Positions 10,801 to 63,836 of a stretch of 64,000 bases of DNA are shown here, piece by piece. Origin of the DNA: Tribonema minus (lineage: Eukaryota > Sar > Xanthophyceae > Tribonematales > Tribonemataceae); the NCBI GenBank assembly GCA_017506865.1, contig JAFCMP010000004.1, positions 310,001 through 374,000 on the forward strand. The letters are read 5' to 3'. The notes under the pieces were generated by a model that worked only from the letters and a program-made list of their open reading frames with translations, was not told the DNA's origin and ran no database searches. Position 1 is the stretch's first letter. Each line of letters begins with the position of its first letter. The position numbers were made by a program, and so were the translations under genes.

Positions 10801-13800
10801 TAGCAATAAGGGCCTGAAACTGCAAGACGGGGGGGTATTATAATCTGTTTCCTACGGTAGGTATGCTTACCTTGACCATCTCATACCGCCTCTCGGCCTC
10901 CGGGTCGTCCATGGCGGGCATGGCCTCTGGGTACTTGGCAAGCATGATGGACACAGACTGCAGCAGCACGAGGGCACAAATCGAGTGTTTTAGACAAAGC
11001 AGTAATCTGATGTATACGTGGAGAGAGCAGTGAAGAGCCATGTGTACAAATGATGGCGCAAGCGCATGACATGAAGGACAATCACAAGCACTGCACATGT
11101 TGAAGGGTGAGAAGATCGTACTCTAGAAGTATGTACGCAAAGGGCAGCAGTCCGCCTGACAGCCCAGAAGACGTCACCACAAATTGCCCCTCCGTTGCCA
11201 CATACCGTTGGCTCATGAACGCCTCAGTGCAATTCAGCAAAGCTTTGAAGTGCGCAGTCACTCAAGTGTGGCACAAAATAACTGCATGTGAACCTTACAC
11301 AGCAAGTGCAGTTTTTCCTGTCATAGGAGTAATCATGCCCAGTCCTCGTCACTGCTGTGCAACATGAAGTGCTCTGTTTCCATTGCCGAAGGTGCCACCA
11401 AGCCCAGATGGTCAAAAAAATGCTTCAAGGTTTCGACCTTTTGCCGCCACATTACACAATGCTCAAGCAAGTCACAGCACATCGCCACACAGGGCCTGCC
11501 CCATATATACAGTTCTTCTGAGAGCCCTGCAGGAAATTCTGGGCCGTCGATTCTCACCTCCCCTTCGCCCATGGAGCCCCTCCCAGGCAGACGCTGCCAC
11601 AGATCCTCCGTGACAAAGGGCATGATGGGGTGCAGCAGGCGCAGGCCAAAGTCCAGGCACAGGTACAGGCATCCCTGCGCAATCTTGCGCGCTTCCGCAT
11701 TGGCCTCACTCTGTTGCAGGGGAAAGCAAAACGAGAATACAAGTTGAGCTCGCAGTTCTGAAAACAACTGTTGCCGTTGGTGTTGTTGTGGGTGACACTG
11801 GCGTTTTCAGGCCATGGTTCAAGCACAGGTACAGGCATCTCTGCTGAATCTTGCGGGCTTCCGCATTGACCTCGCTCTGTTGTAGGAGAAAGTAAAGAAG
11901 AGAAGACACGTTGAGCGAGAACTGGAGACAGAAGTGCCGTGGTGGCAGACCACACACCGTACCGCAAGTACAACCTCATTGCAAGTACAACTTCAATCAT
12001 GCCGAACCGCAAGTACAACTTCAAGGGGAAGGCACAGGCAGCGGACAGCATGTTCGTGCCCTAGACCTAACCCTAGTGCACTTGCATGGGCTTCAAAGGG
12101 CGCAAGTGGCAAGGTGGTACGCGTTGTTCCATGACTGAAGCCAAGCAACTGTTGACCAATATCTGGTTGAACCAAAATATCATCAAGTCAGCGCATGCAC
12201 ACCCTCGCAGTCATTCGACTACAGTGTGCAGTGTCGGCGCCTCCTTACCTTATCGTTCACCACGGGGGCTTGATGAGCTCCAGGTGTGTGCTAACTGATT
12301 GTCGATCCAAAAATAACAAAATGGCATAGTCAGCGCATGTTCTCTTGTTATCACAGCCAATCGACCGAACTGTGCGGTGTCGGTGACTCCTTACCTTATC
12401 GTTCACCACGGGCTTGATCAGCTTTAGATAGTGGCAAGGTCGTTTGTGCTGCTCCGTAGATGAAGTTATGTAATTGTTAGCTAAATATTGGTCAAAGAAA
12501 ATAACAAGCGCACGATCTCCTGCTGGCACAGCCGTTTGATAAGCCGCTGCATTGTCGGTGACTCCTTACCTTGTCGTTCACCACGGGCTTGATGAGTTCC
12601 AGGTAGTGGTCACACAGCTCGTACAGCCAGAACTGGTACAGGCAGGTCGTGAGGCCGCCAAAGTCATACGCCGTGAAGCACCTGCAGCAACGCAAGGTAA
12701 ACATGGTTTTGTTACAAATGGAAGTGCTACCAAGGCATGGTAAATCAAGTAAACACCTGCTCCCTGATGAAACCATTTGAAGCAACAGAAGGCAGCAGAG
12801 GGGCACCGTCATTCATGTCAAGGTTGTAGCGAAGGGTGACGCTGTTGCGGCCATGGCGATATATACATATTTACTGAACAGCACGTGTACATGTGCATCG
12901 TGTCAAAGCATCAGAAGGCGATGCACAACGGCAAGCGACAACTCAGTTTGATCATTGTTGTGATGACGCTCCACACTTCACACACATGCAAGTGCATAGT
13001 ATTCATTCACCAGCAGCATGCAATTCATTCACCAGCTGCTGTCAGCAAGCGCACGCAGGTCAACACAGCAGTGTGTATGTCCGCAATAGATGGGAGCAGG
13101 TTTAGCAACTGGTACGGCAGGTCGTGAGGCCGCCAAAGTCATACGCCTGAAGCACCTGTAGAGACCCTAACAAAACATGGTGTTGTTTTGAGCACATAAG
13201 CCACGGTACGTGTAGGCCGCATTAGGTAGAATTAGGGTTAGTAACCCTAGCCTGCCTGCGCGTCTGCAGGACTTCCTCTGAGGGTTAGGGTTAGGGTTAG
13301 CAACACCAGGCGGCGAGTCCGTATACTATGCTGGTGACGAGGTGCTTGCTGAGCAGCTTTTGAGGCAGCAAAGGCCACAAAGCTCGTTTAAAGACTCCTG
13401 AAGCTCAGCAAAAGGCTCAGACTAGGGTAAGGGTCGTCCCGCAAGGGCGGCTTCCTGAACGGCAGAGCAGTGGACTGCAGCGTTGAAACTTGCCAGCATC
13501 CGCTTGTCTCTTGGCGCTTGTGTGGCGTGATGCCACAACAGTATACTTGAATTTTTGCAACAGCACTCTCGTTGCAAAAGCCACACAGGGGTATGTATCA
13601 GTTTTTTTCTTCATACATACATACCTGTTGGACTCGGCCACGGCAGCGTTCAGGCGCGACAGAATCCACTTGTCCCTGGGCGCCTTGTTGGGGTTGGCGG
13701 CCAGTTCTTCCGCCAGCGCCAGCGATGGCCGCAATTCGGTGACGTAGGTCAGGGCGAAGCGCGTGGCGTTCCAGAGCTTGTTGCAGAAGTTGCGGTAGCC

Positions 13801-16800
13801 TGAAAGAGGGCGTCAGTGACAGCCAGCAGTGGGAAAGTCAGGCGTAAGTGCATACGATGCCTCGTTACAGGCTTCGTGTGAGTGTGTGCGTCAAACTCGC
13901 GCCAGTTAACAGGCAAGCTATACCATGCCTCAGACGCACTGCACTTCAAGTGCGACGCTCACGACGCCGGTGATGTTGAGGTTTGATGTCTGATGCCAAA
14001 GAGTGGTGGGGGATTCTCTCATCTGCGCGCATACGTAACCGCTTCACTGCAAAGCTGAAGAGCCCACGTCAACATGCTTCACCGACTCCTATGCAAGTTC
14101 AAGTTCATGGGTTAGGGTTAGGGTTAGGATTATCAAGTTCATGCCTCTGTCTAGATATGCAGGTAATCCGACGGCTCATTGCGCACTTCACATGCAGTTC
14201 AAGTGTGGCGCTCCGCAATGACGCGGTCGATGTCGATGTCTGATGTCTGATGCCAAGGAGCGGCTAAAAATACTCACATGACCATTTTGTAACCGCATCA
14301 CCTCTTCCTCGTCATGCAGGTGATGCGACAGCGCGAAAGCGCACTGCATGGGCACCTCGAGCGTGTGTGCCGCTCGTTGACGACGCAAATTATAAGTGAC
14401 GCCAAACGCGTGTATTTGAATCAGTTGACTACCACCAAACAAACCTGTGGTCCATGCCCCGCCGCCGCCAGCCCCTTCTTCACAACAATAAAAACTTCCC
14501 ACATCACCCCCGCTTGTGGACGCTTAGAAGACACCTGTCTTCGCGAGAGATGCAGACCTGCCGCTTCTCTTACTTGAAGAGTGACGCCTTGCACTTCAAA
14601 TAAACTTCAAGAGTGACGCTTACCAATGACACGACAATGTCGATGTTGATGTCGCGTGACAGTCTGTAACCTCCGAACCTCTGCCTAACCTTGCAGATAA
14701 TGTAATGATTCGAAAACACGCAGTTCACACGCACTCACGCACACACATTGAGTGTGACGCTCAAACTTCAAGTGCAAAGCTCACCGATGACGCGGTTGAT
14801 GTCGATATTGATGTCGCATGACAGTCTGTAACCGCCGCACCTCTGCCTAAACCAGGCAGGCAACGCAACCCGACTCGGATAAACGCATTTCACACGCACT
14901 GAAAGTGTGATGCTCACACTTCAAGAGTGACGCTCACCGATGACGCGGTTGATGTCGAGGTTGATGTCGCGCCCCTGCACCGTGTACGCCAGCAGCCCGA
15001 ACCGCAGCGCGTCAGTGCCGCACTCGGGAATACCCTCGGGGAAGTCAGCAGTCTGAGCCTTCTTGGCCGTGGCGACCTCCTTAGCGGGGAGGTTGCCTGC
15101 GTCCAGTTTGGCCAGCAGGTTGTCGAGGCTGCAGCCGAGGATGACCTCCAGAGGGTCGATCACGTTGCCAAGCGACTTGCTCATCTGCAGAATGAACGCC
15201 AGGTGCGCACACGATGTGTGAGAAGATGTTCAATAGGAGTGCATGCGAGGCGGTGGCTGTGAATCACCTTGAGGCGTTGATCACGGCGACTAGCAAGCAT
15301 ACAACTCGGACTAATGCATAGGCATGTATGTGGGTGCTTGTGTTTGAGGATGGCAAAAGCTTGGAAAGCTCAAGAAGCGTCAAGGCTGCAGCCAGGAATT
15401 TTTCAAGGCAGAATATGTGCGCGTTGCGCATGCTCAACAAGCTGCCTACATGCCTTGCACCTGATATACCTACATACCTTGCGCCCGCGCTCGTCGCAGA
15501 CCACCGGCTGCCACACCAGCTCATTTCCAGTGCTTCAACGCGGAACGCAGTGCTCAGTGCTCAACTCGACGATTCAACATACACTATGTACACACCTTGC
15601 GGCCGTGCTTGCAGCGGACCATCGGGTGCGAGACGAGGTCACTTCCAGGTTCAACTTGAAGCAGTGCTCAGATACATGCAGTACATGCACACCTTTCGAC
15701 CGTATTTGTCGCTGATCATCGCGTGCAGGACCAGCTCATTTCCAGCGATTTCAACAAGCAGCAGCGCTCAACGATATACCTACATACCTTGCGGCCGTGC
15801 TTGTCGCGGACCACCGGGTGCACGGCGACTTATTTCCATTACTTCAAACATGACAGCAGTGCTCAAAATACATACAGTACATGCATACCTTGCGGCCGTG
15901 CTTGTCGCGGACCATCGGGTGCAGGAAGACTGTTGTGAAGGGCAGCTGCCCCGTGAGCTGCAGCCCCATCATGACCATGCGCGCGACCCAGAAGAACAGT
16001 ATATCCATGCCCGTCTCCAGCAGTCTGCGGTAAGAGTAGAGTACAGGGAGGGTGAGGGAGTGAGTCAGTGAGTGAGTCTGCACCCGAGTCACATATGCTT
16101 GCCAACGTCTTTAGATGTGGTGAACATACTCTCGCCCTTCAGAAACTAGATGAGTGGTCAATGAAAACCATGACATGTGTACACGTGGTAATTTAGACTG
16201 CCTTGAGCTCGAAGTCGACAGGTACGACGACAGTCAGCGGCATTTGCATCGGCAGTTACAGCGGCAGTTACTCACGTGGTGGGGTAGAATGCCTTGAGGT
16301 CGTCCGTCTGTTCCGGCCAGCCAAAGACGGAGAAGGGAAACAGTCCACTGCTGAACCATGTGTCCAGCACATCAGGGTCCTGCTCAAGCTCCAGCTGCAT
16401 ACACAGGATTGGAACAGGGCTAGAGTGTTGAGTATAATAGAGTCCGAGTTGCGTCATGAGCACACCACACACTTCTGTCTACCTTACCGCCGTGAAGAAC
16501 TATAGAAGCCGAGAATGACAGCTTACTACGCAACTGCACCTGCCGCCGCTTTGAGACATGAATGAAGCTGAAACCAATGGCTTACTGAGCAATGCTGCTG
16601 ACTACATAAACGATGGCACTGTTTGACTCATGGCCAATGACTGCAGCAGCGGCGACCACGGTCACTGGTGGAAGGCGCTTGCAGCTCACCACACTTTGTT
16701 AGAGCTTGACGATCTTTTGATTCGTTTCCATGAACCCACCTCCGCTTCTGCGCAGCCCAGCGCCTTGGCGGCGAGCACTGCTGCCTCCGCCTGGCTGCGC

Positions 16801-19800
16801 GCGACGAACCACCTGTCGTTGTGAGTCGAGTCATTGCGGTCGAGTCCCTCCCCCTTGCGCTGCGCAAAGTAGGCGGGGATGCGGTGCCCCCACCACAGCT
16901 GCAAAGGGGGTGAGGGGGGGGGGGGGGGGGGGGGGTGAGGGTCTTTCGCAGCAACGCAAGCGTGGCCACAGTAAGAGTGTGTAGTGTGTTGCAACGTAGA
17001 GCCACCACAGCTGCAAAGAGGGGAAGGGGGGGGGGAAGAGTGAGGGTATTTTGCAGCAACGCCAGCGTGGCCAGAGTAAGAGTGTGTTGCAACGAATAGC
17101 CATAACAGCGTCGAGGGGCTTTCGCAGTAACGTGTGGCCACAGTAAGATTGTGTTGTATAGTAGACAGCTGCTGCTCACAGGCCGAAGCCAGTCGTGCCC
17201 TGCTATAACTGCCGCAACCGTCAAGCGTGCTTACAGCAATTGAACATGTAACTGCCACATGCTCCATCAGAGTGGTTGTCTAGCAGCGAAGGGATGCGTG
17301 TTGGTGATTAGCCATATGCAGCATGCGGCCAATCACACTTCGAGTACTTGGAAGTCACTTGAGTACTCGAGAGGCATGAACCTCTGTGTTTGGGGCTACC
17401 GGCTGGAGCTGGCCTACAGAACACGTGAGACCTTTCCATATTAAACACCCATGCCTCGAACGCTAAAAAGCTTGCACACAGAAGTCTTTTTGCCTACTGT
17501 GGTCATGGTGGCACTGTTTGACTCGTGGCCAATGACTGCAGCAGCGGCGACCACCGTTATTGGTGGAAGGCACTTGCGGCTAACCATCCCTTGTCACCTG
17601 GAGCTCTACGATCTTTTGTTTCGTTTTTCACATCTATAACATCAGCCACATTAACGAAGGCTTTGACGCTCGACAGCTGTTGTGGCTAGTGGCTGTATGG
17701 GCAACAGTGCACTTGGACATGAGCATCTAGCACAACTTGTTGTGAGCATAAATTTGTCGTGACACATTACGCAACACCAGTCACGTGCATTTTCCAATTG
17801 AACTTCAACACACCATCAAACCTCAACACACACTCAGCACAGGCGTTGTGCTTCCTGAGTAGCAGTACCTGTCGTGACACACACCAGTCGCGTGCGTTCT
17901 CGAGCCAGCGGTACCAGGTCTTCTCGTGCACAGGGGGCTCAATCTTCAAACGGCCCTCGCGAACCTCCTTGACAGCCGCCGCCGCCATGCCCTCACAGCG
18001 CACGTACCTGAATACAGAAGGTGTAAGAACGACAGTGTGAGCATACCGTATGAGACAAAGTTCAAATATGAAGTATGTGCAGCGCACGTCACCTGTAGCG
18101 GAATCAACACGCTGTGCGTATGCTATGGGAGAACCTGAAAGTCAACTTCAGGTCAACTTCAGGTACATAGTGTGGTTGTGAAGTTCACTTAGTGTGCACA
18201 TGCCATCGCCGCCATGCCTTTGCAGCGCAGGTGGACGCGGAGAAATGCGGAAGCAGCGCGCGCCATAAGACAGAAACTACGACACATTGACGCATGCGCG
18301 CCCCTTGACATTGCCGGCGTTTCATGTCCATGTGTGTGCAAATGGCGTGAATGGACGAGAGCTGAAAAAAAATAAAAATGGCGCAGACCGCCCCGCAAGG
18401 CTGCTTATGGTGCTGTCAAAGGGAAGAGACCATTTTGCTGTGAGTCAGACTCCGAGTCAAGCTCCAGTCAGTTTCAACCTCAACAAACCCGACCGTGAAA
18501 ACAGGTTTCCGCGAACTACTACTGGTATATCAGATTGCAAGGCTTGTATGCACACGGGCTAAGCCAACTACCTTTACTGTGCGTTCTTTCCAATGAGGTG
18601 CCAAGAAAGGCTCAATCATGTCGCCAAATAGCAACTGCAGATGCTTGCAAGCAGATATAGATGAAGACTACGCTGTATGAAGCGCTTGCATACATGTAGA
18701 AATCTCAATACTTGGGCTTTCAAGGTTTAGACTATACGTTCAGCCAAGCATGCACGAACCACTGATATTGTTATCATAGAAAAAGCGCTTGTGTTATCGT
18801 AGAATTCTCAATACTTGTAGTCCAACAGTATCAGATTTAGCCAACCCTGAACTCACCACTGATAATGAAATCGTAGAAAAAGCGCTAGTGTAACCGTAGA
18901 AATTTCAATACTTGGACTCCAATAGAACTCACCACTGATAATGTAATCGTAGAAAAAGCGCTCGGAATGGTAGAAATCTCAGTACTTGGGACTCTGAAGG
19001 TTTACAGTTTTAGCCGACCCTGCACTCACCACTGAGGCGCCAGGAACGGCTCAATCACGTCGCCAGAGCGACTGCAGATGCCGAGGCGCATCTTGTTGTC
19101 CTCCTTGCCGCGCAGCAAGCCCTTCTTATCCAGCTCCTCCTCGCAGGCAATCTGCGGCAGCAGAATGTGGACGCATTGCGCGCAGCAGCAACGGAGAAAT
19201 AACAGGATACATGCATTGGTATTATGTACCACTTGTGATTAGGTAAGTAGTGGAGACTTTACGACAAGTGTCCCTGTGATAGATGGCAGGCTTGCAGGTG
19301 ACAAGAAATGACACGCTGTAGCCTGGGTGCCTTTGGGTTAGGGGTAGGTTCAGGCTAGGGTTACTTCAAGCAGCCTGTGGCGGATCTCCGACGTTGCCAA
19401 GCGTCGTCACAAGGGTTCCTGGTGGTTTCAAGTGCTTGAGACTGTGCATAATACACTGCTCGCATGCGGGTGCCGCTGAGAGACACATCTCATGCAAGTT
19501 CCTCCTTACACACAATCTTGGGACTGGAGATTGCCGGAAGGCAGAAGTTCAAGTTGAAGTGCTGATTCATCCGCAAAGGCTGTGATAAAGCACTCCCACA
19601 GTCCCTCTCCGAACCAAGTAAGCATATGCGACCAACCATACTTTCAACACCAGGTATGCATGCATACTCACCCTGGCGTCGTAGCGAAGCATACCCTCAA
19701 AGGGCGCCGCGGCGGCGTTCATACTCCCATCCGGGTTGAGTATGTTGATGGACTCCAGGTTGTTGCGCTTGCCGCATTCGTAGTCATTGGGGTCATGCGC

Positions 19801-22800
19801 TGGCGTGACCTTCACGGCGCCTGTCCCAAAGGCCATGTCCACTAGAACGCCGTCTAGAACGATGGGGATCTGCGTAGGGCGAAGCATGAGTGAGTGAGCA
19901 CGCGTAGCACCAAACCTGTTTCACGTGAGTGAATGTCGGCCAGCATGTTGTCCAAACGCAGGCAGAGCAGGTTTGCTGTGGTTGACCACTCAGGGTACAC
20001 TGGTCTGCATGCGCTGCGGCGCATCCCTTCTGCCGTTAATGTGACCGTGTACATAAGTCACAATGTGTTACGACAACACCTCACAGGCACCTCGATGAAA
20101 CTGCCACCTTGAAGAATCGGTCACCGGCTCCTCTTTGTTCCTCACGCCGCGCGGTGGCAGGACCTCAAACAACACCACTTCAACGCATGCAGCCACCTTT
20201 CTGCCGTTGACGGGGTGTGCAGGTGCTTCGCGTGCAAAAATCTACCAACAACGATGAGCATTTTCCTCATAAACGTCGTCATGCCACTTCAACATATTTC
20301 TTCAACGTGGCGGGTCACCTTTCTGCCGTTGAAGGGGTGCACCAGCGACTTCCCGTGCAGGTGTGTGTAGCGGGGGTCATCAGGGTGTACAGCAACGCCC
20401 GTATCGCCGAGCATCGTCTCCAGACGCGTGGTTGCCACCACCAGTTCTTCATCACTGCGGGCGAATCACATAGGGACTAAGCACAAATGAGACAATGGTG
20501 GCATGCATGTGTGTTAGCAAGTGCGCAACGACACTGCCGAACATTGTCTCGAGAGGTGTGGTGGTGACCACAAGTTCCTCATCGCTGCGGGCAAACCACA
20601 TGGGATAAAGCGCGAGTGATACAGTGGTGGCGTGCATATCCACAGGCACATACGCAATGGCAACAAGTGAGTCGCGGAGCATGGTCCCAAGACGCGTGGT
20701 GGCGACCACAAGTTCCTCATCGCTGCAGGCAAATCACATGGCGATTGAGCATGAATGAGACAATGGTGGCGTGCAGATGCGCTGGCAATCACGCATTGTA
20801 AGTGCGTTGCGAGATCGCTACGCGCGCAGTGCGACCAACCACGGTGGGAAGCGCGAACGAGACTATGGTGGCGTGTATATGTGCTAGCAGTTGCGCAACA
20901 TCATTGCCAAGCATCGTCTCCGGATGCATGGCGGCAAACACGAGTCCGTCGTTGCTACACGCTCAGGGGGAGGGTTGGCAGGCAACGTAGCTACACACTC
21001 GGTGTTAGGGTCAGCAGGCAAATGTGAAGCTGCAGCACAGTCAGGACAAGCACGAGTATCTTTTAGGAAAAAGGAGTGGGTGTACCACTCTATTACTTTG
21101 AGTATACAGATCAAAGCATGTGCTTAAAAGCAATTCAACATCCATCAGACCTGCTCTCCACCTTGTACGCAAAGTGCGTGAGCGTGCCAGATTGATCAAC
21201 ACTTGTACACGGCGTACTTGTAGGATCTCAAGATCATCTTTGAAAATTGACCTTTTATAAATAACATTGATCAACTTGCACAACTGTTTGATAAGTTGCT
21301 CCACAATATATATGGTATGTATGCAAAACTGCACATACCTGCCCTCCACCTTGTAGGCACAGTGCGTGAGCGTGCCAGACTGAGTATAATCTAATACTTC
21401 AAAGTATATGGTGTGTATGAAAAATTGCACATACCTGCCCTCCACCTTGTAGGCAAAGTGCGTCAGGGTGCCAAACTCGTACTTGGCGCGCTTCGTGTGG
21501 CCAGGCACGGACAGCAAGGTCCTCCCCTCCAGTTCCAGGTAGTCAACCTCAATGTCGCTGATTGCTGACTGCAGCAGCACGGCAACAGCATGGCATAGCT
21601 CAGCAACAAACTGCAACATTGCTCAACAGTAGCCATGACGTGCAATGTTGCTGATTGCGGACTGCAGCAGCACGATAACAGCATGGCAATGCTCGGCATC
21701 ATTGTTCAACAGTGAGCATAATCGTTCAGCGGTGCCAATGACATGCAGTCAGCGACAGCAACATTGTTCAACAGTGAGCATCGTCGTTCAGCAGTGCCAA
21801 TGACATGCACTGTTGCTGGTTGCCGACTGCAGCAGAACGATAACAGTTTGGCGTTGCTCAGCAACAAACCGCAACATCGTTCCGCAGTAACAATGATGTG
21901 CAATTGTCGCTGAGCCAACTTCAATGTCGCTGACTGCTGAACTGTAACAGCACAAACGAGGCATAGCAACGCTCAGCAGCATGCAGGCGACATTGCTCAA
22001 ACGAGATAAAAAAAGTCGCTCTATTGCAAGCACCATCAATGAAAAAGTCTCATCTGCTGGACAATAAGGGCAGCTCCAGTCCACCAGGCGCACATCCCTG
22101 TACACTGTACCCACCACCCCTACAGCTAAGTTGAAGTTGTTCTTGCAGCATAAACCTTGTCTGCTGATCACCTTCAGCGCGCAGCTCCAGTTCGCCAGGC
22201 GCGTCCCCCGTACACTGTACCTACATACCCTGTGGCTGAGTTGAAGTCATGTTTGAAGTACAAATAATCACCTTGAGTGCGCACCTCCAGTTCACCAGCC
22301 GCGTGACCCTGCACACTGTGCAGTACCTGACCCAACAGCTGAGTTGAAGTTATGATTGAAGTAAGAATTTGCTGAGCGCTCCCGTTCACCAGGCGGGTGT
22401 ACACTGCACCTACCTACCCTTCTACAGCTTAGTTGCACAAGCGATCACCTTGAGCGCGCAGCTCCAGTTCACCAGGCGTGTGTCCCTGTACAGCAGGCCG
22501 TCCTCGTGAAACCGCACAAACGCCTCAAGCACGGCTCTGCTCAGGTTAGGGTCCATAGTGAAGGCCTCCCTTTCCCAGTCCACTGACGAGGCCAGCTTGC
22601 GGATCTGCAAACAACAGCGAGTTCCGAGCAAACGCCGCTGCTTACACACTGAGGATGCAGCATACATACATCAAGGTACTCATGGACTTGTATTCCTACA
22701 GGCCCCGAGGGAGGCCTGCCACAGTCCACTGACGGTGCGGGCTTGCAGGCAAGGGCGAGTTCACGAAGATGCCTGCTACTTCACAAGGATGCAATGCATT

Positions 22801-25800
22801 CAGAGTACTCATGGAATTGGGTTTGTGTAGGCCTCAAGTGGAACCCTAAGGCGGGGTATCCAGTGCGTTCCTAGGGTTATCAGCAACCTTCACAAAAACG
22901 GGTGCAAGTACCAGACGTGAAGGAACAGTACGCTACCGAGTTGCTCGTTGTGCATCCCAACCCCTAAACCTAAGCCAGCGCAACAGACCCATCTACATCT
23001 TGCCATGCTTCATGGTGCCACACAAAGGAAAAACGTATGGACGCACTGCGTCTAACCCCAAGTTTAGGGTAGGCTGCCCCCCATACTCTAATGCAATCCG
23101 CAACTGGCAAGTGCGGCAGGGCAACGCCGAGTAGGTCGCAATGGCAATACACCTCGAAGTACATAACAGTACGACTCCATTTCCTGCCATGATTTATCTT
23201 AGACTGCCACCCCGTTGGCAATTTATCTTAGACTGCCGCCCCATTGGCTTATAGCTCTGCATGATGCCGCTAGTCAAAGTCATATTGCCGCCCCATTGGC
23301 TGATAGCTCTGCATGATGCCACTGCAGCCATGCTGCTCAGTTGTGCAAGCGGATATACTAGCAGCACCTGGCCGTAACCCTAACCCTGGATGAGTGCGCT
23401 GGCAAGCCTACGCCTTACTGCAAGGTTGCCTTGGTAACATTGCGGCGCTGGGCGTGCACACTGCCACACTTGCCAGGATGCTTGGTTTGAGAGCACATAC
23501 ACGATCAGTACCCTACTCAGTGTGCGTAACCTCAACCCTGATGCAAGTGCATGCGACGAAGAGCAGAGCTCTCTGACCGTGTACAGACAAGATCAGCGAA
23601 AAATAAGGCTGACGTGCTCGCAACCTATGACATACCATGCACATTAGATACGGCTTGCACAATTCCCCGTACTCACTTCACCATGTGTTTAACGCCAAAG
23701 AACAATGAACTGCCTTAAACAAGTTCAGACACTGGTGGCTCACCTGCTTGGTGATCTTGCCACCGTATTCCTCCTTCCATTGCCAGACGCGCTGCCAGTG
23801 CAACAGAGCAAAGAAGAAGAGTCGGAAACGGTTAGGGTTTGTTGGCTTCCAGCAAGGTACAGTAGCAGCGTTGCGACGGTGGTGCTCAAGGTGTGATAAC
23901 TTCACGCTTTCTGACTTGAAGTTAGACAAGGTGTAAGAAACACTACGCAGTATTCTACTGTGTATGGCGTCTACAAGACAAGTCAATTTGTGGGAGAGCT
24001 TGCACTCAGCATTAGCATGGTTTGTTCCGCAGCATTGAGCTCGGTCTGTATGTGATCGTCATAGTGCAAGTCCCCCTTTCGCTTCACAGCGCAAAGCACT
24101 ACATCAAGGTGGTAACTTCAACAATAAACGTGTACCTATAATAGACCGTGCCTCCATCTACGTATCCGGCTGCACACTGCGTGTGTGCATGGCAGCAGCG
24201 GGGAGTGTCGCCAGCGCCAGTTGCAGCAGCGCCCTGTGCACCCACGGCCAATGCGTCTGCACGCCGGTTGCTGTCATAGTGGCTATTACCAGTGAACAGC
24301 AGCTCCATCGCGGCACCTGCGCCATTTTGTTTTATCAAGTACACTACATAGAACTTCACTAAGTATGGCGTCTTACAAGACTCTTCAATTTGCGGGAGAG
24401 CCTGCACTCAGCATTAGCATGGTTTGTTCCGCAGCATTGAGCTCGGACTGTTTGTGAAAGTATGGCGTCTTACAAGACTATTCAATTTGCGGGAGAGCTT
24501 GCACTCAGCATTAGCATGGTGTGTTCCGCAGCATTGAGCTCGGACTGTTTGTGATCGTCATAGTGCAAGTCCCCTTTTCACAAAGCACAAGACAACACTT
24601 CAGGTAGAAGTACAGGTAGAAGTACATCTTTTGACAAACGAATGTACTAGATCTAACGACCGACTCGACTCGGTTCTCTACATGACAACACTTCAGGTAG
24701 AAGTACATATTTTGACAAACGAATGTACTAGATCTAACGACCGACTCGACTCAGTTCTCTACATGACAACTCAATATGCGGGAGAGCTTGCACTCAGCAT
24801 TAGCATGGTTTGTTCCGCAGCATTGAGCTCGGTCTGTTTGTAATCGTCATAGCGCAAGTCCCCTTTCCACTTCGCAGCACAAAGCACTTCAAGAATGAAT
24901 GCACTAGGTCTGACTACACTGACACGACTCGGTTCAACCGACCAGCCTAGTGACGGAGACAATGTTTGATGCAGCAATCAACAGTTTTCGGTCAGTTTTC
25001 CAGAGAGACACGCAAACAATTGACCTGCGAACAGCTCCTATATTTTATACCAGCACCTCTGTCATGCCTTGAAATATTCTTGACGAGATCTGCAAGAGCT
25101 CTATGCATAGGTCGGATCGCGTGGGTCATTCTCAGTTCCGTTCAATCAACCGAGCATATGATACAGGGCTCGAAGCTGGTGGCGCACGACCCCCCTCTGG
25201 GAGCAGCAATAGTACCCGATGCCTTGGAAAACTTAGCAGCACCCATGATGGGATGAGAAGACTTTCAAACATGGTACGGGTGACGCACGGTGCAACATAA
25301 TTAGCTTCAACTGGACCCTTGACAGACCTCTCACTTTCCCAACTAATGGCGCATGACCCTACATTGTTTGTGTATAATTCAATAGTTGCGGCGCAAGGCA
25401 ACTCCCAGCAAAGCAACGTGTGCACACAATGGCGAAGTTTCCGCCCCCCAGCCGGTCATTAACTTCAATGAGGGTTGTCGCATTGACTTCAAGTGCGCAC
25501 CTTGAGGACCCCATCTCTTCCCAGCTGGTCACCATCTTCAATTGAGGTTTTGACATCAACTTGAACTGCGCACGTTGATGATCTCTTCCTTCCCCAGCTG
25601 GCAATAAACCACAACAGGTTCTGACATCAACTTCAACTGTGCACCTTGACAAGTTCTTATCTTCCCAGCCGGTCATCAACTTCAATTGAGGTTTTACATC
25701 AACTTCAAGTGTGCGCCTTGACAAACTCTTCTCTTCCCAGCTGGTGGCGTGTGACCCCCTCGTCCTTGGCCAGCTTCTTCTCACATCATCAAGTTCAACT

Positions 25801-29600: not shown

Positions 29601-29691
29601 CGCTCGGTAGCGGTGTGTGCACGCGCTGCCGCAGATTTGCCAACTTCAATCCCAACTTCAATCGGGATGGATGACCTAAACCTGTGTCCTA
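29601..29691. promoter_or_regulatory. 91-bp bidirectional promoter, ValRS / prenyltransferase
   Basis: Only 91 bp separate the two divergent start codons, so the promoters and 5' leaders of both genes must share or overlap this sequence. It contains two AACTTCAAT words (29640-29660). No TATA box is evident. Confidence 0.6.
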
Positions 29692-45077: not shown

Positions 45078-45091
45078 GTACTAAGGGTAGA
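45078..45091 (+). repeat. Target-site duplication, left copy
   Basis: GTACTAAGGGTAGA is repeated exactly at 46354-46367. The copies bracket the retrotransposon fragment. Confidence 0.85.
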
Positions 45092-46353: not shown

Positions 46354-46367
46354 GTACTAAGGGTAGA
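46354..46367 (+). repeat. Target-site duplication, right copy
   Basis: Exact match to 45078-45091; similarity continues two of three further bases (TAG versus CAG). Confidence 0.85.
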
Positions 46368-46401
46368 TAGGATTAGGATTTTGTCCATCAAGTAGGGTTA
46401 G

Positions 46402-49900: not shown

Positions 49901-52900
49901 GCTGAGCACGGAGTGCTACTTACATGTTTGTTGGTGTCGTGTTGATGGTTCTGCACTCTGTCAGCCTCTCGGCAGCGCATGGACCCACTTACCCTCCTAA
50001 CCTTGCTTTGCTGATATATTCCCATGACAGACAAACACACAAGCCTTGTTCCCACCGACATTGACACTTTGTAGCTGATACTGCTCCGGTACCCATAACA
50101 AAACTGGCAGATTGGGAACACCTGCACCACTGATATTTTGAGATGGAGCACGTGACACTGTCTTACAGGTTCTGCTTAATAACTCCAAAACTGTTGGATG
50201 GTTGCAGTTGCACTGACACTCTCTCACTGATTCTGCTCAACAACACCTATCATGTTAGACGTGACCCCTGTTGCACTGCCACTGTCTTACTGATGCTGCT
50301 CAACAGCACCAAACTGTCAGATGGCAGCTTATGCATGTTTAGTGGAAACGGTTGTTGTGCACTGACACTGTCTTACATATGCTGCTTAATAACACCACAA
50401 CCGTCGGATGGGAGCTGTTGCACTGACACCCTCTCACTGATTCTGCTCAACAACACCCATCATGTCAGACGTGACACATTTACACTTATACTGTCTTACT
50501 GATGCTGCTCAACAACACCAAACTGTCAGATGGCAGCTCACGCATGTTTAGTGGAAACGGTTGTTGTGCACTGACACTGTCTTACATATGCCGCTTAATA
50601 ACACTGAAACTGTCAGATGGCAGCTCGGGCCCAGCGCTCTATCACGCCCTCAAGAGCGTCATACAGTGGACGGGGACGGTGGTGGCGGGCTTGACTGCGA
50701 TGCAGTGGCAGCAGCTCGGCTTTGAGAGCAAGCCCGACGGGACGCCGGACTACAACCGGCCGCTGTACAAGATACAGGTGCGCGAGTGTGCGGCTGGAGT
50801 GTGGCAGTGCTCAGTACAATGTCACAACCGGCCGCTGTACAAGATACATGTGCGCGAGTGTGCGCTGTGAGTGGCACCGCAGATTGCATGCAGCTCTGTA
50901 GCCTAAGAGCGAGCGTGGCCGCTGTACAAGATACAGGTGCGCGTGTGTATTCTGCGGGTGGCTCATTACCGCAGTTGTGCGCAGTTCTGCAACCGTAAAC
51001 GCGAGCGTGGCCGCTGTGCAAGGTACAGGTGTGCATGTGTAGTCTGCGAGGGGCAGTGCTCATCGCAGCAGATGGGACCCCGGAGTACAACCGGCCGCTG
51101 TACAAGATACAGGTGCGCGAGTGTGCTTTGTGAGTGGCAGTGCTCATTAGCAGCGCTCATAGCAGTGCTTGCCCTGGCAGCAAGAGAGCGCGTGGAAGGG
51201 TGCTGCTTGAAGTAGTACTCGAAGAAGTACAGCAAGTGATGTTGCACAATATGGTTTGAATGCCATGCATGTACATGCGCGTAGCAACGCCTGACAGGGA
51301 TCGTGCAATGACACACGTCTGTAATCACGACACCATTGCTGTAGCGGCAACTTTCGGAGTTGTCTCAGACAGCATGCCTGAACAGAGCACTCGGAGTTAG
51401 TTTGACACGGCTGAACTCAGAGCATTCCTTGACTTCAGGAAGGACTCATGCTGCCGCCGCTGCCACTGCTGATGCTGCTGCTGTTGTCGTTAGAATCCCA
51501 ACCCCATCATTGATGGCATCATCCGCCAATACGCCAACGAGACCATGCAGGTGAGAGAGCCAGACATCAGCGCTCAACCAGCCGTTTGCGCAGTCAGCAA
51601 TGGCCTGCAGGGAATGGTGCTGCCGTACTGTTGTTAAAACACTTCTGCGGTTGTCTCACACAAGTTGAAGTTCAAAGAGGAGGTTGTGGGAGGTGGGTAG
51701 CCCACTGCACACGGCGAGTGCTCCACGCCGTCCAGGCCTCGGTGATAAGGTGAACATAATGCTTGATCAGCCAGCGCATAACCGTAACCCTAGTTCTAGC
51801 CCTAGGTCTTGCAGCACCAGACACTCGCAGTGGTTCGCGCCGTTCAATCCGCTGTACGCTTTGCTGTACTGGATTTGTCTCGCCATACGCACGGTAAGAG
51901 CTGCAGCTTGCCACTGGACAGCTAGTTTTGCGGCTGCATGAGGGCTTTGCATATGGCTGCATTGTGGCCCTACCGCAAGCTGTGACTCGCTGAACAATGT
52001 TGCTGAGCACTGTTGCGTCAAGGGCTGAACCTGCGAGGCTGCTACTACAGTTGACAGCACTATTCTGGCTTACTGTGACTGCAACTGTGGCTGCACGTGA
52101 GGCGTTGCACTCACGCAGCACGTCTGCTCTCTGGCCACTGCTGTTTTGCCTCTGCAGAATCTGCTGGTGCTGCTCAAGCGCATTGAGGCAGGGGGGTTTG
52201 ATGACTCCAACATGGGTAAGTTGTTGGCAATTCCATTGACTGAATGGGCGTGCATGCAACGCATACACCAAACACGGGTAGACTAAGCTGTCTATGTCAA
52301 CTGATCTTGGGCATTGACTTTTCCCCCGAAAAAATCGAAGCGCAAGTGACCACTGCTTGCAGAGAGGGAGTGGCCTTCATGTGGCGATGAAGCTCAGCAT
52401 GTTCATGACCTATTGGGCTGGGTGGCGGTATTTCCTGCGTATGCTCCAAAGCCGACCCCTCATTTATGATGCATGCGAATAGCGCTCTGATTCTGCACGC
52501 ATGCGTGCTTCGGGAGGTGTCAGTCTTCTTATTCATTGACGGTACATACTATGGTAAAACGACAACTGTGGATAGTAGGTATAGAGGCATCGCCTGCTCT
52601 CGCCACATGCACTACGCGCCACGCCAGCAGCCGCCCGCCAGGGACAACAACAATGTCAACTTCAACTCTGAACCCCGCATCACGGCGCGCGGCACACCTA
52701 CCCCAACTTCAACATCACCCTCGCCCCATTATTGCCCTTGCCGTGTTCAGATGCCGAGGGCGGCGGCGGCGGCGGTTACGCCAGCAGTAACGGCAGCGAC
52801 AACGCGCGCACGACGCGCGCCAGCAAGCGCGCGCGCGCCTCGCAAGGGGGCGGGGGAGTCTACGATGACAGCCAGCTCGTGCAGGTGGGGGCATGCGCGC

Positions 52901-54497: not shown

Positions 54498-54528
<31 letters not shown>

Positions 54529-56221
54529 AACTTCGAGAGATAGACTACGAGTATCACTGACTTGGGGCTGATAATGGTTGCGTTTTACTTTCGTACAGTT
54601 CGCCTGCTCTGTCCTAGATTTAGCAAAACGCGTGTGATGCTGCATCACGGCCAAGAACTTAAACTCTGGCCCGCAACTGCCTGTAACTGCAGTTGCGCCA
54701 ACGACAAGCTGCACAACGCAGTCGCACTGGCCGCAAACTTCCACTCTGACTTGAAACTGCCTGTAAGTGCCTGCAGCCGCAGTACGCCGACGATGAGCTG
54801 CGCGTCGAATACATACTGGCCAAGAACTTCAACTCGGAGCAGCTGGGCATGCTGGGCCTGCCGGCGTATGACGCTGGCAAGTACCTGGTCGGGTTCTACA
54901 AGGAGGTGGAAGTTCAAGGGGGGGAGACGCGCATGGTGCTCATCACCACGGAGAGGGTGCACGGCCTGCAACCGCACGAGCAACAGGTGAATGTCGCACT
55001 GTACTGTGTGCATTTCGTGTGCATTTACACTGTAATGTGTGCATTCCAGATGCATGGGGGAGGGGGAGACGCGCATGGTGCTCATAACCACAGAGAGGGT
55101 GCACGGCCTGCAGCCGCACGAGCAACACGTGAGCATCGCCAGTGACATGTGCAATGTGTGCTTTGAAGACACATATGGAAAGACACATGTAGAGTGAGCA
55201 TTTGGCTCACCGCTGTGCCAGAGATATGTAGCCGATCAAAGGGCCCAAGCAGGCACAAGGCGTGTGGTTTGTGCTTGTCTTGCTTGTATCAGTGATCGAT
55301 CACCAGCTTGCAAAAACCTGGATGGACAGGAATCAGTGCTCAACAGGACCCAGCCTCGCGCTGAACTATGCGCTGCTCAAGTTGTTGGTCAGGTCACCTG
55401 CAGCAGCGGTATTTTGAAAGCGGTCAGAGGGCAGTCTGCATTGGATGCCGAGAAAGGCGATGGTGCTTTTGTACCACACGTACAACGGCAGCGCTGGAAA
55501 ACAGTGTGTTGATCCACTGCAGCACAGGTCTTCAGCTCTTGAGATGACCCAGCCGCTGGCTGGTGCGGCCACGTTGCGACTGTTCACCGCAGTCACCAGC
55601 TCGTCTTGTGCACCTGCCTCAGGACTACATGAGAACGATTCGAAAGATCGTAGAGCTCTAGGTGACAAGGAGTGGTTAGCCGCAAGTGCCTTCCACCAGT
55701 AACCGTGGTCGCCGCAGCTGCAGTCATTGGCCTACATGTTGGCAACGACGCTGCAATGACTTCAGACATAGCCAGGTTCAACTTTAGCCGCGACCGGGGT
55801 TCACAATGCGGCGCTGGTGTCTTTTTGAAGCAGTGTGTCATGACAGTGTTGCCTGACCGCATGGCAGCCCCATATTGTGGCGACACTGCGGCACCGCTGA
55901 TGCCTCAATGATACCTTAAAGCACACGTCATTCCTGGTTGCCAAACTCAGGCCATCAGGTTGGCACAATGGCTCGCATGCTCGCTGTTCACGCTTGCAGG
56001 CCGAACACCACTATGTATGGTGTTGCTGATTTCATGTTTTTTCTTCGTTTTTTGCCAATTCTGCCCCTGTGCAGTCTGCGACCACGGTGCTACTGGATGA
56101 AATGCGCAAGGGCAGCCAGAGCGTCTTCGAACTTCAGCGCTTCAACACGGTGGAAAAAATGAAAGAGGCCGCGGGGGTCTATTACTGGAAGAAAATGTCC
56201 AACATGGAACGGGGCATGTGA
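46973..56221 (+). CDS. Unrecognised, probably nuclear, 782-residue protein in 10 exons
   Basis: Exons 46973-47386, 47858-48142, 48639-49026, 50617-50777, 51494-51550, 52158-52215, 52751-52884, 53306-53800, 54777-54986 and 56075-56221; all phases agree. Residues 1-138 (YSFAETTFSVYFALVDQYDQ, then alternating beta-like segments to VTIVRYRLQ) and 139-233 (ENCVEMQVHLLDKDGHEVTT, RRVKLRLVLLYDN) look like a beta-rich, possibly Ig-like or DNA-binding double domain. A basic cluster KRIKKKGKKSKD (about 260) and KRARAS (about 485) suggest nuclear entry. A helical region follows (LYHALKSVIQWTGTVVAGLT, IIDGIIRQYANETMQNLLVL), then a Gly/Ser/Pro-rich linker, and a conserved-looking end (LRVEYILAKNFNSEQLGMLG, FELQRFNTVEKMKEA, YYWKKMSNMERGM). 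The layout recalls nuclear regulators such as STAT-like CudA or CBP60, but I see no diagnostic motif. Introns carry many exon-edge copies. Confidence 0.75.
48405..48655 (+). repeat. Three copies of the exon 3 acceptor edge (782-residue gene)
   Basis: CTTGCAGGCGTTCCGCATCA (real, 48632-48651) is preceded by CCCGCAGACGTTCCACATAG at about 48493 and GCCGCAGGCGTCCGCATCAG at about 48404. The block GATCTG..GCGCCGTGTC and TGTAAC..T upstream is duplicated with it. Confidence 0.9.
48990..49270 (+). repeat. Two or more copies of the exon 3 donor edge
   Basis: CGCAGCAGCATTTGGCGGAC with GGAGCAGGAGGTATGTG (real, 48991-49033) is copied at 49218-49262 as CGCAGCAGCACCTGGCGGAC with GAGCGGGAGGTACGT; weaker copies of the GGAGGTATGTATG donor follow near 49330 and 49400. 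Confidence 0.85.
50160..50640 (+). repeat. Tandem array of the exon 4 acceptor edge
   Basis: Units of about 60 bp (ACTGTCTTACTGATGCTGCT, CAACA.CACCAAACTGTCAG, ATGGCAGCTC) repeat along the 3' end of intron 3. Strong copies of the acceptor edge lie near 50305, 50520 and 50607 (real); weaker ones near 50188 and 50400. A higher-order duplication of about 215 bp is also present. Confidence 0.93.
50750..51130 (+). repeat. Five copies of the exon 4 donor edge
   Basis: CCGGCCGCTGTACAAGATAC then AGGTGCGCGAGTGTG is real at 50757-50791; copies begin near 50828, 50918, 51009 and 51085. All but the second keep the CAGGTG donor; the last copy also repeats the preceding exon bases CCGGAGTACAA and GACCCC. 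Confidence 0.93.
52842..53135 (+). repeat. Copy of the exon 7 donor edge
   Basis: TCTACGATGACAGCCAGCTC of exon 7 (52858-52880, preceded by GCGGGGGA) reappears at 53101-53121 as GCTACGATGACAACAAACTC, preceded by GCAGGGGG. Confidence 0.75.
54498..54527 (+). repeat. Poly-G tract (30 G)
   Basis: Uninterrupted G run in intron 8 of the 782-residue gene, on the sense strand. Confidence 0.9.
54640..54835 (+). repeat. Copy of the exon 9 acceptor edge
   Basis: AACTGCCTGTAACTGCAGTT then GCGCCAACGACAAGCTGC at 54668-54708 is a worn copy of the real junction AACTGCCTGTAAGTGCCTGC, AGCCGCAGTACGCCGACGAT at 54764-54802. TGGCCAAGAACTTCAACTC of the exon is also mirrored by CGGCCAAGAACTTAAACTC upstream at about 54650. 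Confidence 0.85.
54912..55135 (+). repeat. 80-bp duplication of the exon 9 donor edge
   Basis: Exon 9 bases GGGGAGACGCGCATGGTGCT through GTGCACGGCCTGCAACCGCA (54925-54979) and the donor are repeated at 55064-55132 with very few changes, ending ACACGTGAGC. The copy has a usable donor and is the least diverged copy in the window. Confidence 0.95.
55631..55750 (-). repeat. Dispersed 120-bp repeat, copy C
   Basis: The reverse complement reads GGCCAATGACTGCAGCTGCG, GGTTACTGGTGGAAGGCACT, TGCGGCTAACCACTCCTTGT and GAGCTCTACGATCTTT, matching copies A and B some 38 kb away. Lies in intron 9 of the 782-residue gene. Confidence 0.85.
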
Positions 56222-61516: not shown

Positions 61517-61943
61517 GTCCCTCTCCTATGTACTCACTCAAGGGCAGCTCGGTGCAGTGCTCGTGAATTTACGAATCCTCGTATAAGCGACTACGCAGAC
61601 GCCTCAGAAGCAGTGGCCTGCTGCGCTGTTCCGGTAGCGCATGGCACCACACTGTCGCCTTGCGCCTGCTACCTTAATACCTCAGTGCCCGACTACTCTT
61701 ATGTGTGTCGTCAAAGAAACTCGTCAACTGCCAAAAAACCGTCTGGGCTGCTCTGCGAACTACTCCAGGTTGTGTGTGTTGTGACCACAAGCTGGTGGGC
61801 GGTGGTGGTGCGTGTAGGCAGTCCGCTAGGTGGCAGCATGCCCACTGTCGATGTCCAGCTCACGCATTGCGACAGCAGCGCCTGAATCCATCGTTGAGGC
61901 GGAGCACATCGTGGTGCGACACTAGGCATGCACGCTGCTTGTG
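61517..61943. promoter_or_regulatory. Bidirectional promoter region, SAM gene / ankyrin gene
   Basis: 427 bp between divergent start codons. ORFs through it have no protein character and no clear box is seen. Confidence 0.45.
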
Positions 61944-63836
61944 ATGTCCGGAAATACCACCAGCAAGGACCAAGATGTCGATCATCACAACAAAGGCAAG
62001 CCTCGTCATCAATCTCGCGCCAGGCAACGGCTGCTGGCTCACAGAGAATCTTTGCAACAGCTGGACAGCATCGGAGCTATCAGTCTCGAAGACTACAGCA
62101 GCGACAGTGCGGATCCTGACGACAGCTCGACCGCTGCTTCTTCTCTACAACTAGACACCTCCAGACCGGTATCAGCATGCATATCGGTGCAATGCGAGCC
62201 AACCCCAATGTCAGCCAGATCGAGCCACAGCAGGGCGCACTCGGAGAGCTCGTCATCGCAGGCGGCAGCCGCGGCGGACACGGCACGGTGCATTGTCAAC
62301 GCAGCAACCGTAAACAACCCCCTCCTGTCCATAATGAACACGGCAGCAGAGGCTGATCACGACGCTCTGCTACTGGCTGCGGAGAGAGGAGATTCGGCAG
62401 CGGTGGCGTCCGTGCTGGGTATCGAGGAGCATCAGGCATCTGCGGTGGCGCAGCAGCTGATAGCACCCGCGTTCCATCCGGATGATGCGCGCAGCGCAGG
62501 TCAGTACACCATAGCAGCAGCAAACATCGTGATTTGACTTGCTGTGATTCTTTGTCGGCATTCCTTCCAGTATTTCATCACTAACACGAGTAGCATGTTC
62601 CGAGCACTGCGCATCCGCCTCAGACTCCATGATCATGCGCGCGCATCATGCTACGGTGCTGCACTGCGAGGCCAGCGGCAGCCTTTCCGCTCAGTGCCTG
62701 CCGCTGCTGCGGGCGCAATGTGTGTAGCGATCGCGGTACTCTTTGGGGCTGAGTGTTGACATGCATGACTTCCAGTGAGTGCACTGCAGCGATTGCATAT
62801 GTTACATGACATGTACGCACATAATGACGTTGTTCTCCACATCTGCAGACAATTCGCAGCGCTGCATCTCGCCGCCAGTAGCGCCCGCTGCTCATTGCTC
62901 AGTACTTGCTGCTAACATAAATGATCGCGGTACATGTTGGGGCTGGTTGTTGACGTGCATGCCCGCACAGACAACTTCACGGCAGCAGCGCTCAGACTGC
63001 TGCTGAGCGCTGGTGCAGACGTCACCCACTCACAGTTTGTGTTGAAGTTGGTAGTAGAGTGTGCAGCGGCTGCGTATCACATCGCACACGCACACACGTC
63101 GCACGTCACGGAGAGAGAAGCAGAGAAGGCTACTGAGGCCGTCAGGGAGTCCGCAAGCAAGACCGCAGCAAAACTGCTCTCACCGTCACCATGTGCTCGC
63201 ATCCCCGTTTAGAGGCATTCACGGCAGGACATGAAGCTGTCACCCCCGGTGCAAAGGCGGAAGCCCCATCCGATCAAACCCCACTTGTCTGCCCCATCGT
63301 CTCGCAGACAACTTCACGACGCTGAACAACGCGGCCAGCAGTGTGTTGAAGTTGGCATGTAGTAGAGTGCACTTCTCATTTTCAGCGGCTGCACGTTACA
63401 TTGCACCCACTTCGCGCGTCCCCCAAGCCCGCCCGCCCGCCCTTGCGCCTCGCAGACGATTTTACGGCGCTGCACCACATGGCCAGCAGTGTGTTGTGAA
63501 GTCGGTAGTAAGAGTGCACTTCTCATTTTCAGCAGCTGCACGTTACATCACACCACTTTGCGCGTCCCCCAAACCCCCTTTCCCCCCGGTATGTCCCCCC
63601 ACGCCTCGCAGACAACTTCACGGCGCTGCACCACGCGGCCAGCGGCGGCCACGCAGCAGCGCTCAGGCTGCTGCTGAGCGCTGGCGCCAGCGTCAGCGCT
63701 CAGAACCGGGGCGCCGAGACCCCCCTGTTCCTGGCCTGCTACCACGGGCACAGGGAGGCTGTGCGGTGGCTGCTCGCGGGGGGGGCGCGGGTCGACGCGT
63801 GCAACGAGTTCGGCGAGACGCCCCTGTTCTATGCGG
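61944..63836 (+). CDS. Ankyrin-repeat protein, N-terminal part (continues past window)
   Basis: Exon 61944-62499 encodes MSGNTTSKDQDVDHHNKGKP onwards, a basic then Ser-rich leader followed by a degenerate first ankyrin-like unit (ALLLAAERGDSAAVASVLGI). Exon 63612-63836 joins in phase 1 and encodes two clear ankyrin repeats: DNFTALHHAASGGHAAALRL, LLSAGASVSAQN, then ETPLFLACYHGHREAVRWLL, AGGARVDACNEFGETPLFYA. It ends at a donor (gtgagg), so more repeats are expected beyond 64000. Ankyrin repeats bind partner proteins; no further domain is visible to give a role. The 1.1-kb intron holds at least four copies of the exon 2 acceptor edge. Confidence 0.75.
62840..63670 (+). repeat. Five copies of the ankyrin exon 2 acceptor edge
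   Basis: CTCGCAGACAACTTCACGGC with GCTGCACCACGCGGCCAGC is real at 63606-63644. Copies begin near 62846 (GCAGACAATTCGCAGCGCTG), 62967 (CACAGACAACTTCACGGCAG, including the coding word CTGCTGCTGAGCGCTGG), 63303 and 63450. The last two share a unit of about 145 bp containing ACTTCTCATTTTCAGC and GCTGCACGTTACAT. Confidence 0.93.

Follow-up and report, generated by a model that had tools for sequence, protein, structure and literature searches.

The window analysed here is a 64,000-nucleotide stretch of Tribonema minus DNA (G000:C4:310001-374000) and belongs to a eukaryotic assembly of 158 Mb in 554 contigs. It carries a ValRS-type gene on the reverse strand and, on the forward strand, a prenyltransferase gene, a Tyr-rich gene, a gene designated '782-residue' and an ankyrin gene. 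The name ValRS, presumably right, comes from the earlier label and from the motifs of that enzyme. Introns of these genes hold diverged direct copies of the adjoining exon edge, at donors and at acceptors, as an earlier note on this DNA had claimed. The observation holds, and it recurs beyond the window in many unlinked genes.

Copies of exon edges in adjacent introns

The final set comprises 92 introns with 184 exon edges, from 20 genes on 14 contigs. Genes for replication, from the class I aminoacyl-tRNA synthetase, Cpn60/TCP-1 and HSP70 families, were located by Pfam hits; the HSP70 sample consists of six genes taken from places located in this way. Exon junctions were placed by reading frame, splice signal and continuity of the hidden Markov model (HMM) match. 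A site described as used is the modelled site. A junction was dropped if its model score was 6 or less, if it lay more than 4 residues off, or if HMM gaps exceeded 22. Four overlapping HMM hits and one place on contig C68 were left out, contig C51 yielded no usable junction, and intron 4 of the paired HSP70 genes C522a and C522b, placed by hand, was excluded from the counts. The terminal 40 coding bases of each exon edge served as the probe, with a copy called at a local score of at least 34 in the adjacent intron, and the null set the same probe against introns of equal length from other genes. The edge test covers all 92 introns. The null, interior-probe and repeat-family tests cover the first 58, and the null and interior-probe tests were run with four prenyltransferase junctions one base off.

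Comparison of the window with itself, the dot-plot type of check proposed in the earlier note, gave a single inverted pair with 45 bits or more within 3 kb, against 69 direct repeat pairs. At the same bit score, direct pairs thin out with distance: there are about 2-3 of them per million position pairs below 400 bp and none at 1.6-6.4 kb. Because of this excess of direct pairs, and because of the fall in density with distance, the repeats of the window are local and same-strand.

A copy was found in the adjacent intron at 43 of 184 edges (27 of 92 donors and 16 of 92 acceptors), against a frequency of 0.0001 for the same score when edges are paired with length-matched introns of other genes. 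The outcome that the earlier note named as refuting its claim, an absence of excess over random pairings of edges and introns, did not occur. The ValRS-type gene accounts for 13 of these, among 38 edges (9 of 19 donors, 4 of 19 acceptors), the prenyltransferase gene for 1 of 10, and the other 18 genes, all outside the window, for 29 of 136. Twelve of the 20 genes have at least one copy-bearing edge and eight have none. The range per gene is wide, from 0/12 (C279a), 0/10 (C548) and one further 0/8 up to 7/10 (C135) and 4/4 (C445). As a genome-wide mechanism, which the earlier note had proposed, the process stands to the extent that a sample of 20 genes can represent the genome.

No copies were detected on the wrong side of an exon, meaning the intron upstream for a donor edge and the one downstream for an acceptor edge (0/128, counted for exons of at least 90 bp with both flanking introns modelled), nor did exon middles have copies in either flanking intron (0/102, for exons of at least 130 bp). 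Edges are copied while middles and wrong sides are not, and the copied unit therefore includes the splice junction. The 43 edges have 90 copies between them; 22 edges have a single copy, and two have at least eight. Among donor copies, 51 of 62 extend to the junction itself, as do 26 of 28 among acceptor copies. Offsets between the best-matching copies of edge families range from 73 to 710 bp.

All of the ValRS edges listed earlier were recovered (donors of exons 4, 6, 8, 9, 16, 17 and 19, acceptors of exons 9, 10 and 20), and three edges are new: the exon 10 donor, the exon 12 donor and the exon 19 acceptor. The other genes of the window were examined individually. Copies are present at the exon 4 donor of the prenyltransferase gene and at two acceptors, junction 37377 of the Tyr-rich gene and junction 63612 of the ankyrin gene; at the ankyrin acceptor, two weaker matches lie further upstream of both copies. 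Four donors had been named in the '782-residue' gene, of which three (49026, 50777 and 54986) were found to have copies, while the fourth, near 48142, has no copy at threshold. The SERINC region contains a repeat pair of 114 bp with 81% identity (3978-4090 / 4107-4220), in a fragment that had no Pfam match. Table 1 lists the features of the window.

Table 1. Genes, exon edges with copies, and young duplications in the window (positions within the 64,000-nucleotide stretch)
Feature	Position	Strand	Basis
ValRS-type gene, 20 exons modelled, the last left open at its donor side	11550..29602	-	frame open through modelled exons; class I aminoacyl-tRNA synthetase family hits
ValRS exon 20 acceptor edge and one copy (11808-11916), 84%	11642..11916	-	self-comparison, edge test
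ValRS exon 19 donor edge and two copies	12173..12609	-	self-comparison, edge test
ValRS exon 19, acceptor edge at 12631-12713 with copy at 13107-13187; exon bases the same at 49/49 aligned places barring gaps, flank diverged	12631..13187	-	
ValRS exon 17 donor edge and four copies	13940..14971	-	self-comparison, edge test
ValRS exon 16 donor edge and four copies	15463..15931	-	self-comparison, edge test
ValRS exon 12 donor edge (19029-19081) and copy (18590-18644)	18590..19081	-	self-comparison, edge test
ValRS exon 10 donor edge with a single copy (junction projected at about 20197)	20197..20360	-	edge test, offset 122 bp
ValRS exon 10 acceptor edge and three copies	20404..20956	-	self-comparison, edge test
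ValRS exon 9 donor edge and two copies	21146..21477	-	self-comparison, edge test
ValRS exon 9 acceptor edge, one over-threshold copy and further related repeats	21541..22000	-	self-comparison, family and edge tests
ValRS exon 8 donor edge and four copies	22070..22492	-	self-comparison, edge test
ValRS intron 6, two young tandem duplications (units 97 bp and 81 bp), no exon contact	24361..24770	-	
ValRS exon 6 donor edge, one over-threshold copy (57/60 in exon part) and further related repeats	25447..25896	-	self-comparison, family and edge tests
ValRS exon 4 donor edge (27553-27597) and copy (27412-27456)	27412..27597	-	self-comparison, edge test
Donor edge of prenyltransferase exon 4 (junction 31659) with three partial copies	31615..32032	+	joined exons match PF01255
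Acceptor edge of the Tyr-rich gene (junction 37377) with a single copy (37194-37220)	37194..37436	+	
'782-residue' gene donor (49026) and copy (49214-49256)	49026..49256	+	
'782-residue' gene donor (50777) and three copies	50777..51112	+	
'782-residue' gene donor (54986) and copy (55069-55127), 56/59	54986..55127	+	
Acceptor edge of the ankyrin gene (junction 63612) with copies at 63308-63339 and 63461-63487, both having AG where the junction projects	63308..63671	+	ankyrin Pfam match

Some further features were noted in passing. A direct repeat (16614-16727 and 17509-17626; 118 columns, 85%) flanks a whole ValRS exon (16740-16898). The stretch 45240-46245 (+) is a long open frame without a Pfam match, presumably resembling the endonuclease end of a non-LTR (non-long-terminal-repeat) retroelement. 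Short interstitial runs of TTAGGG type occur at 6738-6751, 13283-13300, 14110-14128, 23375-23385, 28212-28228 and 49662-49672, several of them in ValRS introns. Across 293 kb, the 12-mer TTAGGGTTAGGG occurs 23 times, with 0.0 expected, and the 7-mer ACTTCAA/TTGAAGT occurs 371 times, with 39 expected from trinucleotides. Within the 92 introns, 33 of 77 instances of the TTGAAGT form lie in the first fifth of the intron, as if marking the donor side.

Intron length and the HSP70 paralogs

Introns with copies have a median length of 920 bp, against 498 bp for introns without (p=3.5e-7). Copies are present in 28 of 47 introns of at least 600 bp and in 1 of 20 below 400 bp. Length, however, helps copies both to exist and to be found, and the association alone is therefore no proof of growth.

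The HSP70 gene on contig C190 and the C522 pair have intron positions in common. At these shared positions the C190 introns measure 1726, 786, 793, 957 and 971 bp, with copies at 5 of 12 counted edges, while those of C522a/C522b measure 493/531, 204/198, 450/323, about 330 (the hand-placed intron) and 278/279 bp, with copies at 0 of 16 counted edges. The C190 introns are thus about three times the length of their paralogs at the same positions. At 49 sites that separate C190 exons from C522 exons, the C190 copies show the C190 base 42 times, the C522 base 5 times and another base twice. All seven exceptions occur at one acceptor, where the count is an equivocal 5 to 5. The corresponding diagnostic counts against two further HSP70 paralogs are 13 to 1 and 8 to 1. 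By these bases, the C190 copies, one acceptor apart, are judged to have arisen, or to have been refreshed, after the HSP70 genes split, and the comparison appears to point to intron growth. Growth of introns, as put forward in the earlier note, draws on this comparison and on the greater length of copy-bearing introns, with that single HSP70 edge remaining equivocal.

The two C522 genes (L021, C522:953001-960000, and L022, C522:980001-987000) are inverted relative to each other, about 24 kb apart, and near-identical in their exons, with differences at just 11 of 398 compared third positions. A near-identical tract of about 825 bp includes a whole intron, while the first three introns differ widely. 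This pattern is a clear instance of gene conversion between the paralogs. Identical scores were also seen across contigs, for one HSP70 hit each on C179 and C90 and for GTPase places on C364, C24 and C166; such sets may be either very recent duplicates or uncollapsed haplotypes.

Exon tracts, intron flanks and the origin of the copies

We consider it fairly probable that these introns grow through a combination of short direct tandem duplications, splicing at the outermost site, and continued recombination of the exon tract. A duplication within an exon would alter the protein and be removed. A duplication across a junction would copy the coding edge, the splice site and some intron, and would be harmless provided that the outermost site, presumably the first donor or the last acceptor, stayed in use. 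The inner copy would become intron, lengthen it, and decay without coding constraint. The duplications themselves would originate in the repair of staggered breaks or nicks rather than in homology-driven slippage. The exon, held by selection, would recombine with its copies by way of the exon-derived tract while the flank drifted. Changes entering the exon would be purged unless harmless, exchange would keep the copies similar, and the recombination would leave exon-anchored copies visible for longer than other duplications in introns.

The third component, recombination, has to be weighed against plain tandem duplication followed by neutral decay, in which the exon part looks conserved only because the exon itself has not changed. 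Plain duplication predicts junction-spanning units, a neutral codon pattern and intron growth, all of which are observed. It also predicts that flanks should diverge about twice as much as exon parts. Where the exon identity of a copy is below 0.86, the flank score of 32.4 agrees with the 32.2 modelled, without deficit (n=13). However, at 18 edges the best copy reaches an exon identity of at least 93% at an offset of at least 130 bp. Simulated flank scores for these are 87 when indels are few and 62 at two indels per substitution, and the observed mean is 31.6, only two of the 18 reaching 57 (P <=0.0003). Copies that are 93-100% identical in the exon part thus have old-looking intron flanks. 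In the band from 0.86 to 0.93 the flank score is 23.2, against 54 and 41 simulated at low indel rates. The correlation of exon identity with flank score is 0.01 over 35 edges, against 0.5-0.7 in simulation, and the Spearman coefficient over 69 copies is 0.00. Comparison of copies with one another within the same intron, where neither side is constrained, likewise gives 0.54 for the exon-derived part and 0.19 for the flank, with a null of 0.105 (58 pairs, the copies having been chosen by exon similarity). Plain duplication with neutral decay is, on balance, an unlikely account of the whole.

For this uncoupling of exon part and flank we favour recombination confined to the exon-derived tract, whether by conversion or by unequal exchange. 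Independent evidence of gene conversion in this genome comes from the C522 HSP70 genes. The main alternative, a possible one, is that copied units ended just past the junction and that insertions came later. Several results weigh against the combined account. The flank deficit in the 0.86-0.93 band is not significant at one indel per substitution (P=0.067). Six of the 18 high-identity edges have flanks at or near the null, and there short units with later insertions suffice. Of 11 interior families, 9 align over at least 0.85 of the offset; of 34 edge families 15 do so, and the full tandem unit is not visible in the remaining 19. At identity of at least 0.93 the flank score is 33.7 at edges and 39.8 in an interior control, or 46.7 once edge families are set aside. 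At face value this control is little different from the edges, but short units that end inside the flank make it ambiguous, and it does not tell recombination from short units. The flank is above null at 68% of 31 edges over the first 1-30 bp, at 55% over 31-60 bp and at 29% over 61-90 bp, a fall with distance that fits recombination and short units alike, and a free-gap profile of flank identity is uninformative in that random flanks also reach about 0.7. On either reading, since the exon part and the flank do not track each other, exon identity should not serve as a measure of copy age.

An array in a cpn60-type gene (L018, C544:160001-170000, positions 6039-6570), with its donor placed by frame and GT, repeats an exon edge together with intron in a unit of about 150 bp. 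Copies E1 and E2 nearly match the true edge, in the flank as well as in the exon part. Copy E3 has an exon tract identical to that of E2 (1.0) and a flank at 0.85 with 9 gaps, that is, a young tract joined to an old flank, and this is suggestive of a conversion-type history. Copy E4 is older in both parts (exon 0.90, flank 0.84), as plain duplication would also have it. The array is the best place found for studying the process young. The earlier note held that copies differ in age and that the process seems to be continuing; exon identity does not support such ages, though a young array does exist.

Whether duplication is directed to splice junctions is a separate question. Of 45 repeat families, 34 touch an exon by at least 10 bp, against 14.3 expected for units of the same size placed at random in viable places. 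The corresponding counts are 8 of 10 against 1.6 for families with at least 85% identity, and 3 of 5 against 1.0 at 90% or more (P=0.049). In addition, donor and acceptor copies occur together in nine introns, above expectation (p=0.015). These figures favour a reading in which transcription or splicing, through R-loops, polymerase pausing or nicks, breaks DNA at junctions and so makes them hot spots of targeted duplication. However, exon-anchored copies remain recognisable for longer because one partner hardly changes, and the raw excess at edges may therefore not mean targeting. Co-occurrence at both ends may merely reflect intron length. Interior stretches of introns are also copied locally (17.3% of 565 probes, in the other genes), and only one of the four young arrays with a unit of at least 80 bp, the cpn60-type array on C544, spans a junction, two of the others being interior to introns and one overlapping an exon by about 4 bp. 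Junctions as special targets, as the earlier note implied, are accordingly not established, and we find the hot-spot reading doubtful. Random tandem duplication with longer visibility of exon-anchored copies may suffice, with the point against it that removal of the edge excess would require roughly 6.6-fold longer visibility, by arithmetic on the family counts. We would give similarly low credence to a joint version, in which junctions are hot spots and exons act as master copies that rewrite the coding part of their own dead intron copies. If that version were true, a process aimed at junctions and templated by exons would drive intron length, and the spliceosome would face the task of telling the true site from many near-identical decoys.

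The likely origin of the duplications was approached through young arrays, identified by Tandem Repeats Finder over 293 kb at a match of at least 93%. In 13 such arrays the excess of repeat over unit is -8 to 6 bp, with a median of 1 and eight of them at 0 to 2, although most of these arrays are short and lie away from junctions, and the measure is blurred by mismatches close to the ends. Because young arrays show so little microhomology, homology-driven slippage, which the earlier note had suggested as one possible origin, is not favoured. Fill-in at staggered breaks with end joining would fit these arrays. Local copy-and-paste of exon edges by templated repair, rather than tandem duplication, is a less probable route still than those weighed so far. 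The 19 edge families that align over less than 0.85 of the offset, and the third or so of high-identity flanks that lie near the null, could be read in its favour, and similar repair duplications are described for vertebrates (PMC2671141). Templated repair should, however, copy exon middles, cross the exon and act in both orientations, none of which agrees with the counts given above for middles, for the wrong side and for inverted pairs, and in 15 of 34 edge families the alignment spans most of the unit.

The copies behave as sequence without coding constraint. Mismatches to the exon stand at 8.7, 6.4 and 13.8% for the three codon positions (n about 1,300 each), a pattern that therefore fits a neutral copy together with synonymous change in the exon. 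Offsets are divisible by three in 26 of 90 copies, and all three frames are seen. GT is intact in 39 of 51 junction-reaching donor copies, with 42.0 expected from divergence, and AG in 22 of 26 junction-reaching acceptor copies, with 21.4 expected. The introns are rich in decoys that decay about neutrally: copies carry decoy splice sites, as had been claimed, and acceptor decoys lie upstream of the site used in the models. On codon positions, frame and neutral survival of splice sites together, a coding role as alternative or mutually exclusive exons is rejected. That copies function more broadly, as alternative splice sites or as poison or mutually exclusive exons, is very improbable. Among junction-reaching copies, 30 of 51 at donors and 13 of 26 at acceptors have splice scores within 1 bit of the true site, which would suit such a function; nevertheless, copies with intact dinucleotides score below true sites on average (7.8 against 8.6 for donors, 6.6 against 8.2 for acceptors), and the near-neutral survival of GT and AG, the out-of-frame offsets and the unconstrained codon pattern all speak against it.

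Further candidates were set aside. A mobile element or introner is rejected within the sample, in which edge probes match other introns of the sampled genes at the null frequency of 0.0001. A spliced-RNA template is not favoured because donor copies run on into the splice site and intron sequence. An assembly artefact, through collapsed or tandemly misjoined haplotypes, is scarcely credible, given that a misjoin would not respect the splice junction, whereas edges but not exon middles are copied, at many identities (about 75-100%) and on several contigs.

Known systems and meaning

Tandem duplication that makes new introns was known before, as were repair duplications. The present case stands apart by its scale, by repeated copying of junctions at either end that adds length to introns already present, and by the decoupling of exon tract from flank. 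Among the titles and abstract openings listed in a survey of the open-access PMC literature, with subscription journals and preprints outside its scope, none described introns that gain length at numerous junctions from copies of their own exon edges.

Tandem duplication of gene segments is a known source of new introns (review PMC3443670; potato RdRp case PMC4974935, which cites the Rogers model and Gao and Lynch 2009). In the potato RdRp case, as here, a direct tandem duplication within a gene is neutralised by splicing, and the unit crosses an exon-intron boundary (PMC4974935). A new intron was born there, whereas existing introns are lengthened here, at 43/184 edges and with at least eight copies at some. 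For HSP70 only, the copies in C190 can be seen to sit in introns whose positions are shared with the copy-free paralogs C522a and C522b. Among vertebrate repair-mediated duplications, 4 of 824 human donors were partial exon/intron, and one case of opposite orientation is described (PMC2671141). Those duplications resemble the present ones in being short copies of nearby DNA with splice sites among the copied sequence; they differ in that 69 of 70 local pairs here are direct and 34 of 45 intron repeat families touch an exon. Small tandem duplications made by fill-in at staggered breaks and end joining, a route marked by dependence on Pol alpha-primase, CST and NHEJ, are described as short, <100 bp (PMC8355091). 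They are direct and do not need homology, in keeping with the little microhomology of the young arrays, although offsets here are often larger. In gene conversion between paralogs, of which stress-inducible Hsp70 genes are an example (PMC5865164), similar tracts recombine and diverged flanks are spared, as seen here between two HSP70 genes. The partners proposed for the exon-edge copies are instead an exon and the dead copies in its own intron. Introners, in which one element occupies many genes (PMC9860276), likewise reshape introns on a large scale in one genome; the copies described here are, by contrast, private to each exon within the sample.

The copies provide a visible record of transposon-free intron lengthening, with about a quarter of the examined exon edges copied. 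Their arrays are natural experiments on splice-site choice, in which a true donor or acceptor stands against decoys of similar exon sequence and often similar score. This suggests a risk of error, in genomes of this kind, for the alignment of reads and the prediction of genes. If recombination of the exon tract is true, coding constraint would protect non-coding copies, an unusual route by which selection on an exon would shape its intron.

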